Shown here in pieces: positions 1-34,913 of a stretch of 64,000 nt of DNA; position 1 is the first letter of the stretch, and each line of letters starts with the position of its first letter. Made by a program: the position numbers and the translations under genes. Source of the stretch: Aggregatilineales bacterium (lineage in GTDB: Bacteria > Chloroflexota > Anaerolineae > Aggregatilineales > Phototrophicaceae); assembly GCA_030834905.1 (NCBI GenBank), contig JAUQWZ010000024.1, positions 248,001-312,000 of the forward strand, in the 5' to 3' direction. Below the pieces are notes generated by a model. That model did not search any database. It was given only the letters and a program-made list of their open reading frames with translations, and was not told where the DNA came from.

Positions 1-716
1 TTGAGATCGCCGATTCGCAGTTCATCATAGTGAAAGAGCGTTGCCGCCAGCGCTGCGTCTGCCCCGCCGTTGGTCAGCGCTTCGGCAAAGTGCTCTTTTT
101 TGCCCGCGCCGCCTGACGCAATGACCGGTATCGACACTGCGCTGGCGATGGCGTGAGTCAGCTCGATATTGTAGCCTGCCTTGGTGCCGTCGCGATCCAT
201 GCTCGTGAGCAGGATTTCGCCTCCGCCCCTGCTTTCGACCTCGCGCGCCCACTCGACCGCGTCTCTGCCGGTGTTGATGCGCCCGCCGTTGATGAACACC
301 TGCCATCTGCCATCGACCCATTTGGGATCGATGGCGACGACGATACACTGGCTGCCAAATGCCCATGCCCCCTGGTTGATTAGCTCCGGGCTGCGGATGG
401 CGGCGCTGTTGATCGACACTTTATCCGCGCCCGCCATCAGTGTCGCGCGGATGTCGTCGATGGCGCGAATACCGCCGCCAACGCAGAAGGGGATGAAGAT
501 GGTATCGGCGACGCGCCGAACCATATCCAGCGTGGTGCTGCGGTTTTCGTGCGAGGCGGTGATATCGAGAAAGACCAGTTCATCCGCGCCTTCGCGGTCA
601 TAAATGGCTGCCTGTTCTACCGGATCGCCCGCGTCGCGCAGGTTGACGAAATTAACGCCTTTGACGACGCGCCCGTTCAGCACGTCCAGACAGGGAATAA
701 TCCGTTTTGCGAGCAT
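1..716 (-). CDS. hisF: Imidazole glycerol phosphate synthase cyclase subunit HisF (3' end truncated by window edge)
   Basis: Manual minus-strand translation from ATG at 716: [59 protein letters not shown]..., typical HisF N-terminus; adjacent to hisA. Missing from ORF track because no stop is inside the window. Confidence 0.95.
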
Positions 717-717
717 A

Positions 718-1437
718 CTAACCCTCTGCTGCTTCCAAAGCCTGGCTCAATGTGAGGCGTTCTTCATACAGCGCCATGCCGATCACTGCCCCGGCGACGC
801 TGCCGCTGCGCGCCAACTGGCGGATTTCGTCGGCGGTGGTGACGCCGCCGGACGCAATTACCTGCAAGCCCGTCTCGCGCCCCAGGGCGATGGTGGCATC
901 AACGCTGCTGCCGCCGAGTCCGCCGTCACGGCTCACGTCGGTATAGAGGACGTGCCGGACGCCGTAGGCGCTCATCTGCCTGCCCAGTTCGGCGGGGGTG
1001 TAGCTGGTAGTTTGCTGCCAGCCGCGCGTCGTGACTTTGCCGTCGCGGGCGTCGAGCGCTATACAGATGGACTCCGCGCCCCACTGGATCACGGCTTGTT
1101 CCACGATTTCCGGCTGCTCGATAGCGACGGTGCCGAGTACGACACGGGATGCGCCTGCTTTCAGGGCGCGGGCGACGTCTTCCAGTGACCGGATGCCGCC
1201 GCCAAACTGGATCTTCGCCTTCAGTTGGGTGATGCGTTCAAGCACCGCGCCGCTGTCATTTGCCTGCGACAGCGCGCCGTCAAGATTGACGACATGAATC
1301 CACTCCGCGCCTTCGTCCTGCCATTTCGACGCGGCGGCTGCCGGATCATCGCCGAAGGTGATCTGGCGTTCGGGATCGCCTTCGCGCAGTCGCACGACCT
1401 TGCCGCCGCGAATATCAATTGCCGGGTAGATGATCAC
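718..1437 (-). CDS. hisA: HisA, phosphoribosylformimino-5-aminoimidazole carboxamide ribotide isomerase
   Basis: ORF 239 aa, [21 protein letters not shown]..., (beta/alpha)8 HisA motifs. Confidence 0.95.
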
Positions 1438-2366
1438 AAGACACCTGTTTTCTTTCTGGCACAGACCATGTAAGAGCCGCTTGCGCGAAGCTGAAGCCGC
1501 CGAACGCCTCGTTCGCCTATCAACAGGCGGTAGACTGTTTCAATTCCGTTTTGTAGGGCATAGCCGAAGCTACGGAAATGACCCGGTGTGAGAACGTGAG
1601 TGAGCGCGGCAGGCACAATGCCCCAGCCCGTCCAGAAATCAAGCCATTCCAAGCCTGAATTCACGAACAACGCATTCCAGCCGTCGGGCGTCAGGTGGAA
1701 ATGTGACGAACCATGCCAGCCTTCCCAGAAGCTGGCACCGCCCACGAAATAACCTCCTGGCTTGAGAATTCGCGCGATTTCCGCAGCAGCGATAAATGGA
1801 TTGTACAGATGCTCAAATACCGCAGTGCTGATAACAAGATCAGCGATGCCGGACTGAAGTGGCAGTCGGTGCGCGTCCACCAGAATATCTGCGCCTGAAG
1901 CAGCCCAATCCACGCAAAAGACGTTTCTGAACCCAAGCGAATTGAGATAGCGCCGGTTGCCCCCACTGCCGCATCCAAGATCGAGAATCGCCGCATTTTC
2001 CCCGAATTCTCTCAGCACCTGCTGGCAGTAATACTGAATGCCCTTGTCCAGCTTCGTGCCAAAGCGCTGGCGCACCTGTGAACGCGAATAGTGGTCGAAG
2101 TCCTGGTTCACTGCCTGAAACGAACGCTCCGCGAATTCATAGCGTTTCAGTGGTGCTAGGGGAAGCTCGAAGGCGAGCGTCCGCATTTGACGTTGATTCA
2201 GCGCGCGAAAATCGGTGATGTCACGGTTGGCAACTTTGGCATTCACTGTCTGAAATCCGCAGGTCGCGCATTCCCACTGTCCGTTTTGAAGGGACAATGG
2301 ATTCTGATCGACCGGGCAGCACAGTTTTTCCAGCCAAAAGGCGATGTTGTCAGTTGAAGTTTGCAT
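1434..2366 (-). CDS. Class I SAM-dependent methyltransferase with N-terminal Trm112-like zinc segment
   Basis: ILDLGCGSGGNRRYL motif; CCPVD...CATCG Cys pairs; ATG overlaps hisH stop and the gene overlaps hisA by 4 nt. Confidence 0.85.
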   Translation of the reverse strand: MQTSTDNIAFWLEKLCCPVDQNPLSLQNGQWECATCGFQTVNAKVANRDITDFRALNQRQMRTLAFELPLAPLKRYEFAERSFQAVNQDFDHYSRSQVRQRFGTKLDKGIQYYCQQVLREFGENAAILDLGCGSGGNRRYLNSLGFRNVFCVDWAASGADILVDAHRLPLQSGIADLVISTAVFEHLYNPFIAAAEIARILKPGGYFVGGASFWEGWHGSSHFHLTPDGWNALFVNSGLEWLDFWTGWGIVPAALTHVLTPGHFRSFGYALQNGIETVYRLLIGERGVRRLQLRASGSYMVCARKKTGVL

Positions 2367-2980
2367 TAGCCTTCCAGTTTCAGAAAGTTGGCGAGAATCT
2401 GCAAGCCGGTGCACTGGCTTTTCTCAGGATGAAACTGAACCCCATACATGTTGTCGCGCTGAACACCGGCTGTAAAGGGGATGCCGTAATCAGTCGTCAG
2501 CAGCACGTCGGTCTGGTTTGCCGGAGCGCAGTAATAACTGTGGACAAAGTAGGCATAGCTGCCGCTTTCAATGTCACCCAGCAGCGGCGAGGGGCGGTGC
2601 GTGCAGATCTGATTCCAGCCCATGTGCGGCACTTTCAGCCCCAGGTTATCGGGAAAGCGGGTGACTGTGCCGGGAAGCAGTCCGAGTCCTTCGTGCTCGC
2701 CCATCTCGTCGCTGCCTTCAAACAGAAACTGCATCCCAAGGCAGATGCCGAGGTACGGCACGCCGGTATGGACGGCATCGCGAATGGGCTGAACCAGATC
2801 CTGCTCGCGCAGCTTTTGCATTCCCGCGCCAAACGCGCCCACGCCCGGCAGGATGACCTTCGTCGCGCCGCGCAGATCGTGGGGCGAGCGGACAACCCGG
2901 ATGCTTTCAGCGCCCAGGTGGTTTAGCGCGTGCAGGACGCTGCGCAGGTTCCCCGCGCCATAATCAATGACAGCCAGCAT
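2366..2980 (-). CDS. hisH: Imidazole glycerol phosphate synthase glutamine amidotransferase subunit HisH
   Basis: MLAVIDYGAGNLRSVLHAL...GICLGMQ...VQFHPEKSQ; start chosen at internal Met matching HisH N-terminus. Confidence 0.95.
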   Translation of the reverse strand: MLAVIDYGAGNLRSVLHALNHLGAESIRVVRSPHDLRGATKVILPGVGAFGAGMQKLREQDLVQPIRDAVHTGVPYLGICLGMQFLFEGSDEMGEHEGLGLLPGTVTRFPDNLGLKVPHMGWNQICTHRPSPLLGDIESGSYAYFVHSYYCAPANQTDVLLTTDYGIPFTAGVQRDNMYGVQFHPEKSQCTGLQILANFLKLEG

Positions 2981-2993
2981 GTGATCCCCTCGA

Positions 2994-3023
2994 TAAAATA
3001 AAAATCCCCGCATTGGCGCGGGG
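2994..3023 (-). terminator. Rho-independent attenuator terminator upstream of hisH
   Basis: Minus strand TCCCCGC-GCCAAT-GCGGGGA followed by TTTTTATTTT; lies between leader peptide and hisH. Confidence 0.85.
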
Positions 3024-3055
3024 ACTGACGGGCAAAACATAAACACGTGACGGTC

Positions 3056-3109
3056 TCATGCCAACACTGGGAACTTGATATGTAGATGGTGATGGTGCTG
3101 AAACCGCAT
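3056..3109 (-). CDS. His operon leader peptide MRFQHHHHLHIKFPVLA
   Basis: ATG CGG TTT CAG CAC CAT CAC CAT CTA CAT ATC AAG TTC CCA GTG TTG GCA TGA; upstream AGAGG RBS; 5 of 6 consecutive codons are His; followed by terminator and hisH. Confidence 0.88.
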   Translation of the reverse strand: MRFQHHHHLHIKFPVLA

Positions 3110-3133
3110 GTTGTCGCCTCTTGATGATGTTCA

Positions 3134-3162
3134 AGTATAATGAGCGCTCGATTCATTGTCAA
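3134..3162 (-). promoter_or_regulatory. Sigma70-type promoter for the his leader
   Basis: Minus strand TTGACA (3162-3157), 17 nt, TATACT (3139-3134). Confidence 0.85.
3136..3141 (+). promoter_or_regulatory. Putative -10 element for the divergent SAM hydrolase gene, overlapping the his -10
   Basis: TATAAT on plus strand overlapping TATACT on minus strand; no strong plus-strand -35 seen. Confidence 0.45.
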
Positions 3163-3176
3163 CGCGGCGGAGAAAA

Positions 3177-4004
3177 ATGGTTATCGGACTGCTGACCGAT
3201 TTTGGAATGACCGACGCTTATGCCGGCGTGATGAAAGGCGTTATCCTGAATATCGCCCCGACGGCGCAAATCGTCGATATTACTCATGCGGTGCAGCCGC
3301 AGAACGTCCGTCAGGCGGCGCTGACGCTGGAGAGTGCGTATCGCTATTTCCCGCCGGGGACGATCTTTCTGGTGGTGGTCGATCCCGGCGTGGGCAGCGC
3401 CCGCCGTCCGGTGGCTGTGCAGGCGGGCGGCTGGGCGTTTGTCGCGCCGGATAACGGCGTTCTGAGCTACGCGCTGTCTGGCATGGGGGGATACCGCGCG
3501 GTGACGCTGACGAATTCCGCTTACCACCTGGCGGAGACGAGCAGCACCTTTCACGGGCGCGACATTTTCGCGCCAGCGGCGGGACATCTGGCGGCGGGCG
3601 CGGGGTTGGATCGGCTGGGTTCGCCGGTGGACGATCTGGTGATCCTCGAACGTCCGCGGCTGCTAGTGGGCGATCATCAGATCGAAGGCGAAGTGACGCA
3701 CATCGATCATTTTGGCAATATCGTGACCAGTATCGGGCAGTTTCGCTGGGAGTCACCGGATACACTTGCGCTATCGGCTGCGGGCGCTGACGCCGGGCGG
3801 TCTATCGCGGCTGACAGGGCACAGATGGCGCTGGGCGAAACGCGGCTGATGGGTATCAAACGAACCTACAGCGATACCGCGCCGGGTGAACTGCTATGTC
3901 TGATTGGCAGCAGCAGCTGGCTTGAGATGGCGGTGAACGGCGGCGATGCCGGGCGGCGGTTGGGCGCAAAGATCGGTGACGGTGTGGTATTGAGGATGGG
4001 ATAG
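3177..4004 (+). CDS. SAM hydroxide adenosyltransferase / SAM hydrolase (DUF62 family)
   Basis: MVIGLLTDFGMTDAYAGVMKGVILNIAPTAQIVDITH...; GGAG RBS ahead of ATG 3177. Confidence 0.9.
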   Translation: MVIGLLTDFGMTDAYAGVMKGVILNIAPTAQIVDITHAVQPQNVRQAALTLESAYRYFPPGTIFLVVVDPGVGSARRPVAVQAGGWAFVAPDNGVLSYALSGMGGYRAVTLTNSAYHLAETSSTFHGRDIFAPAAGHLAAGAGLDRLGSPVDDLVILERPRLLVGDHQIEGEVTHIDHFGNIVTSIGQFRWESPDTLALSAAGADAGRSIAADRAQMALGETRLMGIKRTYSDTAPGELLCLIGSSSWLEMAVNGGDAGRRLGAKIGDGVVLRMG

Positions 4005-31157: not shown

Positions 31158-33797
31158 TTAGCGGGTGGTGGCGCTGTCTAAGGCGCTTAGGCGCTCGGCA
31201 ATCTGAGTGACGCTGGCTTGCAGATCGGCGAGTTTGGTGCGTTCGCGTTCGATCACCTCCGGTCGCGCCCGCGCCATAAACTGGTCGTTGCCCAACATGC
31301 CCTGTGACCGGGCGATCTGGTCTTGCAGTTTGGTCTGCTCTTTCGTCAGGCGCTCGCGTTCGGCTTGCAGATCAACAAAGTCCGCCAGTGGCAGATAGAG
31401 GGTGATATCGCCTGCCACCACCGAAGCGACCTGCGCGGGGATTTCCTCGCCAGCATCCAGCAGCCGCAGCGCCGAGACATTACACAGCCGCGAGAACAGA
31501 TAAGCGTAGCCCTCGATCAGATGCTCGCTGTCGCTGCGCGCCGCCAGCGCGGTGATCCTGCGCGCAGGCTCGACGCTGTACTCGTCGCGCACGTTGCGCA
31601 CGCCGCGCACCAGATCGATCAGCAGCAGCATGTCGCGCTCGGCATTGTCGTCATAGTAGCGCTCGTCTGGCTGGGGCCACGCCGCCATGATCAGGGCTTG
31701 TCCTTCGTGCGGCAGATAGCTCCAGATCTCCTCAGTCACAAACGGCATGTACGGATGCAGCAGCCGCAGGCTGGTATCCAGCACGTGCAGCAGCACGCGC
31801 CGCGCCGCCGTCTTTTCGGCACCGGTGCCCTGATACAGCGGGTGTTTGCTCACTTCGATGTACCAATCGGCAAAGTCGCCCCACAGAAAGTCGTCAAGCT
31901 GGCGACCGGCTTCACCGTACTGATAGGTTTCAAACAGCCGCTGGACTGTACTCACCAGCCGGTTGAGGCGGCTGAGAATCCAGCGCGAAGGCAGATCGAG
32001 TTCATTGGGCGGGGGCGCGCCCGGCGGCAGGCTCTCGGCATCCTCGCCCAGATTCTGGGTGACGAAGTTCGACATCTGCCAAATCTTGTTGACGAAGCGC
32101 CAGTTGCGCTCGACACGATCAGCGTCGAGGTTAATGTCATTGCCGGGCGTGCTCCCGGTCACCAGCGTAAAGCGCAGCGGATCGGCGCCGTATTTATCGA
32201 CCAGTTCCAGCGGATCGATGACGTTGCCCAGCGTCTTGCTGATCTTGCGCCCGTTTTTGTCACGCACTAACCCATGCAGATACACCGTCCTGAACGGCAC
32301 GTCGTCGGTGAACCACAGCCCAAGCATGATCATACGCGCCACCCAGAAGAACAGGATATCGTAGCCTGTCTCCATGATGGTGGTCGGGTAGTAGCGCGCC
32401 AGATCGGGCGTTTGTTCGGGCCAGCCCAGCGTGCTGAAGGGCCACAAGCCGCTGCTGAACCAGGTATCGAGCACATCTTCTTCGGGCGTCCAGCCGTCGC
32501 CTTTGGGCGCGGTCTTGCCGACATAGATCTCGCCGTCGGGTCCATACCATACCGGGATGCGATGCCCCCACCACAACTGGCGGCTGATACACCAGTCTTC
32601 GATGTTCTCCAGCCAGTGGAAATAGATCTTCTCGAAGCGTTCGGGCACGATTTCGATGCGCCCGTCGCGCACCGCTTCCAGAGCCTGTTCCGCCAGTGGC
32701 TTGATCCTGAGGAACCACTGATCGCTGACCATCGGCTCGACGACTTCGCCACCACGCTGCGTGCGCGGCACGACCATGGTGTGATCCTGCGCCCGGATGG
32801 TCAGTCCGGCGGCGGTCATATCCGTCCACAGCTTCTGCCGCGCCTCGAAGCGATCCAGACCGTCATACGGACCGGCGTTTTCGTTGAGGGTGGCGTCCTT
32901 GTTCATGATGTTGATGAGCTGCAGGTTGTGCCGCTTGCCGATCTCGTAGTCGTTGAAGTCGTGTCCCGGCGTGATTTTGACCGCGCCCGTGCCAAACTCT
33001 CGATCCACGTACTCGTCGGCAATCACCGGAATCCGGCGGTTGAGCACCGGCACCAGCGCCATTTTGCCGATCAGGTGTTGGTAGCGCGGGTCTTCCGGGT
33101 GAACCGCCAGCGCCGTATCGCCGAGGATGGTTTCCGGTCGCGTGGTCGCCACCGGGATAAATTCGCCGCCTTCAATCGGATAGTTGAAGAAGTACAGTTT
33201 GCCGGTTTCTTCCTCGCGCTCCACTTCAAGATCTGAGACAGCCGTCCGCAGACCGGGACTCCAGTTCACGAGACGCGGTCCACGGTAGATCAGTCCCTGT
33301 TCGTAGAGACGCATGAAGACTTCCAGCACCGCGTTCGATAAGCCTTCGTCAAGCGTAAAGCGCTCGCGATCCCAGTCGCAGCTTGCGCCGAGGCGTCGAA
33401 GCTGGCGGTTGATCTCGCCGCCGTATTTTTCCTTCCAATCCCAGGTGCGGGCGAGAAACGCCTCGCGCCCGATTTCTTCGCGGCTGGTGCCTTCTTCATG
33501 CAGCATCTTCTCGATCTGAAGCTGGGTAGCAATTCCGGCGTGATCCATGCCCGGCACCCACAGCGCCGCTCTGCCGTTCATGCGGGCATGGCGGATCATC
33601 AGGTCTTCCAGCGTGCTGAACAGCGCGTGACCCACATGCAGCGCGCCGGTCACATTAGGGGGTGGCATACTGATGACGAAGGGTTCGGCATCCGGTGGCG
33701 CGGCTTCCGGCTTAAACCAACCGCTGCTCTGCCACCAGTTATAAAGCCGTCCTTCGGCTTCGCTAAAGTCAAACGTCCTGGGCATCGTCCTGAGCAT
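31158..33797 (-). CDS. valS: Valyl-tRNA synthetase
   Basis: PPPNVTGALHVGHAL (HIGH-type), NGRKISKTLGNVIDP (KMSKS-type). Confidence 0.97.
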   Translation of the reverse strand: MLRTMPRTFDFSEAEGRLYNWWQSSGWFKPEAAPPDAEPFVISMPPPNVTGALHVGHALFSTLEDLMIRHARMNGRAALWVPGMDHAGIATQLQIEKMLHEEGTSREEIGREAFLARTWDWKEKYGGEINRQLRRLGASCDWDRERFTLDEGLSNAVLEVFMRLYEQGLIYRGPRLVNWSPGLRTAVSDLEVEREEETGKLYFFNYPIEGGEFIPVATTRPETILGDTALAVHPEDPRYQHLIGKMALVPVLNRRIPVIADEYVDREFGTGAVKITPGHDFNDYEIGKRHNLQLINIMNKDATLNENAGPYDGLDRFEARQKLWTDMTAAGLTIRAQDHTMVVPRTQRGGEVVEPMVSDQWFLRIKPLAEQALEAVRDGRIEIVPERFEKIYFHWLENIEDWCISRQLWWGHRIPVWYGPDGEIYVGKTAPKGDGWTPEEDVLDTWFSSGLWPFSTLGWPEQTPDLARYYPTTIMETGYDILFFWVARMIMLGLWFTDDVPFRTVYLHGLVRDKNGRKISKTLGNVIDPLELVDKYGADPLRFTLVTGSTPGNDINLDADRVERNWRFVNKIWQMSNFVTQNLGEDAESLPPGAPPPNELDLPSRWILSRLNRLVSTVQRLFETYQYGEAGRQLDDFLWGDFADWYIEVSKHPLYQGTGAEKTAARRVLLHVLDTSLRLLHPYMPFVTEEIWSYLPHEGQALIMAAWPQPDERYYDDNAERDMLLLIDLVRGVRNVRDEYSVEPARRITALAARSDSEHLIEGYAYLFSRLCNVSALRLLDAGEEIPAQVASVVAGDITLYLPLADFVDLQAERERLTKEQTKLQDQIARSQGMLGNDQFMARARPEVIERERTKLADLQASVTQIAERLSALDSATTR

Positions 33798-33800
33798 GTT

Positions 33801-34634
33801 CTATCCTCGTTTTCCGTTCTTCTGTCCATCTTGTCGCAGCCATGACGGCGGGTGTTTGATTGCCAGCGGTTTGCGCGCTACCAGAATGCGCTCCGTCCGA
33901 TCAAAAGTATCGGCGATTTCCTCAAAGCCAATTTCCAGCAGGACAACCTTGACCTCGTCGGTCGAAAGCGGGCGGAAGACGACGCTGCGCTTGATCGCGC
34001 CGTAATGTTCGCCCTGTCCCTTGACGATAAACAGGTTACAGGTGGCGATCACCGGGGGACCGTCTTCCCATTCCCAGGTTTCAAAAGTAATGTGCTCGCC
34101 GCCGCCGGGAATCGCATGGATGAAGCCAGGCAGGAAGCGCGGGCGGTCTTCCATGAACTGTCCGAAGTCGCGCATCCCGATGACGAGCGTGCCGCCCGGG
34201 CGAAGCAGCTCGAAGAAGATCAGCAGCGTGGTTTCGATTTCGTCGTCGGTGAGCAAATGGGGCAGGGAATTGCCTTTGGTGATGACCGCATCAAAGGGAC
34301 CGGTTACCACGTCGAAAAGGTGAATGAAGTCGCCGCGAAAGAACTCGATCTTGTCGTCCACGCCGCAGGCTGCCGCGATCTCCTGCGCCTTGCGCAGCAT
34401 ACCGATGCTTGGATCGACCGCGAAGACTTCAAAGCCAAGCTGCGCCAGTGGAATCGCCTGGGCACCCGCGCCGCACGAAGCATCCAGGACGCGCAGCACG
34501 CCGCGATTGCGAAAGATGGTGCGCAGTCCGAGTCCTTCTCGCTCCATCTGGGTTTCCCAGTCCCGATAGAACAAAGTGTACGATTCAGCGATGGCGTCGT
34601 AGAAGTCGTTGGTTTCTTCGGTACTGGTCTGCAT
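33801..34634 (-). CDS. Class I SAM-dependent methyltransferase between T-box and valS
   Basis: VLRVLDASCGAGAQAIPLAQLGFEVFAVDPS; RBS GGAGG ahead of ATG 34634. Confidence 0.88.
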   Translation of the reverse strand: MQTSTEETNDFYDAIAESYTLFYRDWETQMEREGLGLRTIFRNRGVLRVLDASCGAGAQAIPLAQLGFEVFAVDPSIGMLRKAQEIAAACGVDDKIEFFRGDFIHLFDVVTGPFDAVITKGNSLPHLLTDDEIETTLLIFFELLRPGGTLVIGMRDFGQFMEDRPRFLPGFIHAIPGGGEHITFETWEWEDGPPVIATCNLFIVKGQGEHYGAIKRSVVFRPLSTDEVKVVLLEIGFEEIADTFDRTERILVARKPLAIKHPPSWLRQDGQKNGKRG

Positions 34635-34655
34635 CGCGAGCCTCCTGAACGAATC

Positions 34656-34687
34656 AAAAACCCCTCTTGACACAAGGACGAGAGGGG
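34656..34687 (-). terminator. Intrinsic terminator of the T-box leader
   Basis: Minus strand CCCCTCT...AGAGGGG then TTTTT. Confidence 0.88.
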
Positions 34688-34913
34688 CTGCCTTCGCGGT
34701 ACCACCTTGATTCTGGGAATGCCACGCATTCCATCAGCGCTCTGACGCGATAACGGGCGTACCCGACCTCACTTCAGGCGAAGCGTTCGGCGAGGCAACT
34801 CCTGGGCGACCTTCGGCAGCTACTGCGAGTGGGCTTCCAGCCCTCGACCCACACTCTCTCGCGCAGGGAAGCTGCGTACTCCTCCCATTCATCGTTGTTA
34901 CGAATTTCCAATT
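34656..34913 (-). ncRNA. T-box leader (predicted tRNA-Val responsive) controlling methyltransferase-valS
   Basis: Minus strand AACGATGAATGGGAGGAGTACG...GCGAGAGAGTGTGGG...GAAG-GTC-GCCCAGGAG...AAGGTGGTACCGCG, then terminator. Confidence 0.92.

Follow-up and report, generated by a model that had tools for sequence, protein, structure and literature searches.

The hisH upstream region and its genes

The 64,000-nucleotide stretch of DNA analyzed here, hereafter the window, belongs to a draft genome of 5.29 Mb and opens with a cluster of his genes on the minus strand (Table 1). In the direction of transcription, hisH is followed by a methyltransferase gene, hisA and hisF, and hisI and hisE lie just beyond the window on the same contig, after hisF (PF01502 and PF01503 in L091). 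The cluster had been described, from the sequence alone, as a four-gene his segment; inside the window it has three his genes, hisH, hisA and hisF, accompanied by the methyltransferase gene, whose ORF overlaps both hisH and hisA. On the other side, HMM searches identified the product of the divergent gene at 3156-4004 as a SAM hydroxide adenosyltransferase/SAM hydrolase family protein.

Direct reading of the minus strand upstream of hisH located each part of the leader that the sequence-only reading had proposed. These are a near-consensus promoter with an AGAGG ribosome-binding site, a short ORF with four consecutive His codons plus a fifth (3109-3056), and a GC hairpin with a T tract (3026-2994) just before the start of hisH at 2980. 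The leader ATG stands 24 nt from the promoter, and this gap contains the Shine-Dalgarno-like sequence. Among ORFs of 7-45 codons on both strands of the window, this one alone has four consecutive His codons, and 30 simulated 64-kb sequences (first-order Markov) yielded no tetra-His short ORF. The fold of 2985-3130 scored z = -2.96 against dinucleotide shuffles.

Table 1. Features of the his leader and the genes behind it, in window coordinates.
Feature	Position	Strand	Evidence or detail
Promoter TTGACA-17-TATACT	3134..3162	-	TTGACA 3162-3157, 17-nt spacer, TATACT 3139-3134; 11/12 consensus
AGAGG, Shine-Dalgarno-like, for leader ORF	3117..3121	-	sequence
Leader peptide ORF MRFQHHHHLHIKFPVLA	3056..3109	-	ATG 3109; stop TGA 3058-3056
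Sensor codons CAC CAT CAC CAT CTA CAT	3080..3097	-	sequence; CAG codon just before
Segment 1 ACCATCACC, inside the His codons	3088..3096	-	near-complementary to segment 2; support for 1:2 weak
Segment 2 GTGTTGGCATG, antiterminator strand, final ORF codons	3057..3067	-	duplex and alignment analysis
Segment 3 CGCGCCAATGC, terminator 5' arm and loop, partner of segment 2	3010..3020	-	
Terminator hairpin (segments 3:4)	3003..3026	-	10 pairs, 6 G-C; then T-rich tract TTTATTTTAT to about 2994
Conserved ACCGTCACG just 3' of the leader stop	3045..3053	-	YGTCACR motif in family leaders
hisH	2366..2980	-	TIGR01855, 232.6 bits; ATG 2980
Methyltransferase gene between hisH and hisA	1434..2414	-	PF08241; start codon uncertain
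hisA	718..1437	-	TIGR00007
hisF	3..716	-	TIGR00735; runs off window

Conservation of the leader before hisH

We gathered hisH upstream regions from relatives among 101 genomes and counted a leader wherever an ORF in the correct place had three or more His in a stretch of eight codons. Within the window's GTDB family, where HisH identity ranges from 60 to 78%, 48 of 56 upstream regions contained such a His-rich leader ORF; of the other eight, L024 was without any leader and seven had one or two His codons. A terminator followed the leader ORF in nearly all of the family's upstream regions, and the promoter TTGACA-17/18-TATACT was matched at 10 or more of its 12 positions in 49 of 55 leaders, compared with 0.9% of Markov controls. 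What the sequence-only reading had proposed to look for in orthologous leaders, a kept His run and terminator, is therefore present in most of the family. At the peptide level, the His run and a C-terminal PVLA/V are conserved among relatives, and the rest varies widely. The motif YGTCACR, located 4-13 nt past the leader stop, occurs in 11 of the family's 55 leaders, where 0.2 would be expected, and is possibly an RNA polymerase pause site.

These data bear on the simplest alternative, in which an ordinary promoter and terminator operate without sensing histidine and the His run is incidental, of the kind that chance can produce in short ORFs. We regard it as very improbable, given that the His run, promoter, terminator and antiterminator (below) stay together in the family while the flanking sequence diverges, and that the simulated windows were free of tetra-His ORFs.

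In other families of the same order we found no leader at hisH, and in many of their genomes hisH comes directly after the end of hisB by our own reading of the upstream sequence. A covariance model built from 34 leaders found one strong copy in the window's genome (E = 7e-20). The next match (L174, E = 0.003) was considered as a second his attenuator and rejected, as it consists of a terminator and the tail of a coding sequence. A genome scan with CAYCAYCAYCAY gave 115 raw matches, versus 10 with the reversed control. One MAG record, JAHHHY010000001.1 (L093), is titled as the cyanobacterium Pleurocapsa minor and encodes a HisH 76% identical to that of the window; the title looks wrong.

An alternative pairing with compensatory changes

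The leader ORF ends in codons, usually CGGTGTTGG (Pro-Val-Leu), that are complementary to the 5' arm and loop of the terminator (CCCCGCACCG). In a sequence alignment of 34 leaders, 68% of the cells of this segment 2:3 helix are paired, versus 33-49% with one strand slid, and nine pairs of the helix show compensatory changes. That level of pairing was reached in none of 1000 permutations, and the best duplex between leader and terminator arm had a mean z of -1.69 against dinucleotide shuffles (55 leaders, 73% below -1; window z = -2.7), figures that overstate significance because the relatives are not independent. The loop sequence shifts this helix in the window, where GTGTTGGCATG (3067-3057) pairs with CGCGCCAATGC (3020-3010) at 10 of 11 positions. 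Within the terminator itself the loop pairs with nothing, and an antiterminator is therefore the best explanation for the conservation of the loop's CACC and for the covariation of that CACC with the end of the ORF. The mutually exclusive structure that the earlier reading had proposed to look for by folding thus exists in the window and is conserved in its relatives. Pairing of segments 1 and 2 was weak across the family (mean z = -0.4, among the same non-independent relatives).

The 2:3 pairing also accounts for the conserved C-terminal residues of a peptide that, apart from these and the His run, is highly variable in the family. Both points weigh against an additional action in trans of the leader peptide or of the terminated leader RNA; S. 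meliloti trpL provides a precedent for each, as peTrpL and rnTrpL (PMC7298713), and we give such a role here little chance.

Predicted switch and proposed mechanism

We modeled the ribosome as a cover of 13 nt, counted from the first base of the A-site codon, and obtained terminator probabilities by partition-function folding. For the window terminator this gave a probability of 0.14 for a stall at the first His codon, 0.11 for one at the second and 0.99 for a ribosome at the stop; the corresponding family means were 0.56, 0.57 and 0.93. Shuffling segment 2 raised the stalled-state terminator probability to about 0.86. Placing the ribosome at the fifth His codon, which CTA separates from the other four, left the window terminator at 0.99, so only stalls on the tetra-His run are predicted to switch this leader. 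For some family members the equilibrium model predicted little switching, though the 5' arm was sequestered in the prefix. When the untranslated leader was folded, it formed a long hairpin and the terminator was still present.

The comparison with relatives and the conserved alternative pairing support, at the level of sequence, the earlier reading of his leader-peptide attenuation. The tandem-His leader ORF, the intrinsic terminator before the first structural gene and the conserved, mutually exclusive antiterminator make the leader a predicted member of the functional class of ribosome-mediated his attenuators. We consider it highly likely that it is a ribosome-mediated, trp-type transcription attenuator that would sense charged tRNA-His and control hisH, the methyltransferase gene, hisA, hisF, hisI and hisE, presumably on one transcript.

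In this mechanism, plentiful histidine would allow the leading ribosome to reach the TGA at 3058 and cover segment 2, upon which segments 3 and 4 would pair and transcription would end at the T tract; the model suggests that a ribosome covering segment 2 from the stop codon suffices for termination. When charged tRNA-His is scarce, the ribosome would stall on the His codons and leave segment 2 free to capture the emerging terminator 5' arm and loop, and RNA polymerase would continue into hisH. If the leader is not translated, it would fold on itself and the terminator would form anyway.

Relation to known regulatory leaders

The attenuation mechanism itself is textbook. New here are the phylum, for which we found no earlier report, and the unusual target, hisH. 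The open-access literature searched, in which subscription papers are mostly not covered, contained no report of his attenuation in Chloroflexota. A 2013 survey that used the Rfam attenuator motifs and included five Chloroflexi genomes proposed a possible gamma-proteobacterial origin of these motifs, with very few transfers (PMC3766115). Since then, his attenuators have been reported beyond the proteobacteria, from a few Firmicutes (PMC9413887).

The leader had been likened to enterobacterial hisL (RF00514), and the likeness holds for its predicted mode of working: both have a short leader ORF with a His run and an intrinsic terminator before the operon, and in both the position of the ribosome sets the alternative pairing. 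It does not extend to the family model or to the gene controlled. RF00514 had no match at its gathering score anywhere in the window; at E ≤ 10 it had none in 2900-3300, and at E ≤ 1 none in 20 leader-bearing loci. The leader, moreover, precedes hisH, not hisG, in a Chloroflexota genome. It also has fewer pairing segments than hisL (1:2, 2:3 and 3:4), with segment 2 inside the end of the ORF. In Firmicutes, too, RF00514 gave no match, and the his attenuators there were detected in other ways (PMC9413887). Those of the Bacillus cereus group, Peptostreptococcaceae and Lutispora, and Erysipelotrichales, compared here by their described features, share with our leader 3-5 His codons in a row, a terminator and antiterminator before his genes, and the absence of an RF00514 match; they differ from it in phylum and operon. 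The overlapping pairings 1:2, 2:3 and 3:4, and the blocking of segment 2 by a ribosome at the stop, resemble the trp attenuator (trpL), although His rather than Trp would be sensed and the 1:2 helix is weakly supported.

The window does contain a T-box leader, at 34671-34901 on the minus strand (105.3 bits). Downstream of it are a methyltransferase-like gene (33801-34673) and what reads as a valyl-tRNA synthetase gene (31158-33797), so the genome appears to combine T-box control with ribosome-mediated attenuation. With his T-boxes and a HisR repressor known from other phyla (PMC9413887), and with three pairs of the minimum-energy fold touching the hisH ribosome site, we also weighed whether the hisH leader works by translational control or through another ligand (a T-box, a riboswitch or a protein), the leader ORF being auxiliary. 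This too appears most unlikely. The T-box at 34671-34901 is the sole RF00230 match in the window, none being found in 2900-3300 at E ≤ 10, and the leader matches no other Rfam family. Moreover, the intrinsic terminator and its T tract stand before the hisH ribosome site, and it is on this terminator that the conserved alternative pairing acts.

Histidine leaders before hisG in other Anaerolineae

We searched 399 genomes of the phylum with a covariance model and then searched for hisG. In families of the order and class beyond the window's own, His-run leaders turned out to precede hisG, at 34 of 59 hisG loci under a loose criterion by which a few are probably chance ORFs. In 34 selected hisG leaders of other families we found terminators and the 2:3 pairing (mean z = -2.1, 29 below -1). 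They therefore share the His-run leader ORF, terminator and antiterminator pairing with the hisH leader, and differ in the gene they precede and in the spacing of the start codon. The -10 box ended 7-11 nt before the start codon in 25 of the 32 hisG leaders with a recognizable promoter, a spacing that implies a transcript beginning at or beside the AUG and that recurred in 10 of 55 hisH leaders; the window's leader has instead its 24-nt gap and Shine-Dalgarno-like sequence. Judging from these promoter positions, many of the hisG leader peptides at L183-L195 and L210-L249 are probably translated from leaderless transcripts. Leaderless attenuator ORFs have precedents in S. meliloti trpL (PMC7298713) and, as cited in PMC13236596, in mycobacterial cysteine attenuators.

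In the window's own family, none of 18 hisG upstream regions had a His leader. There hisG follows another gene, which reads as hisZ in the three genomes examined further, the window's included; in these three the region before the hisZ-like gene had no His leader either. We lean, with some reserve, toward a history in which His leader attenuation is old or widespread in Anaerolineae before hisG, often in leaderless form, and in which the window's family lost control at hisG and carries the switch on hisH-A-F-I-E; the leader at hisH could either have moved from hisG or arisen anew. If this is true, control would have left the committed first step for the imidazole-glycerol-phosphate branch.

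A his attenuator that is conserved across a family of Chloroflexota and unrecognized by the Rfam model, with relatives before hisG in the same class, argues that such switches arose or persisted more widely, and that they escape notice since neither family models nor gene callers detect them.
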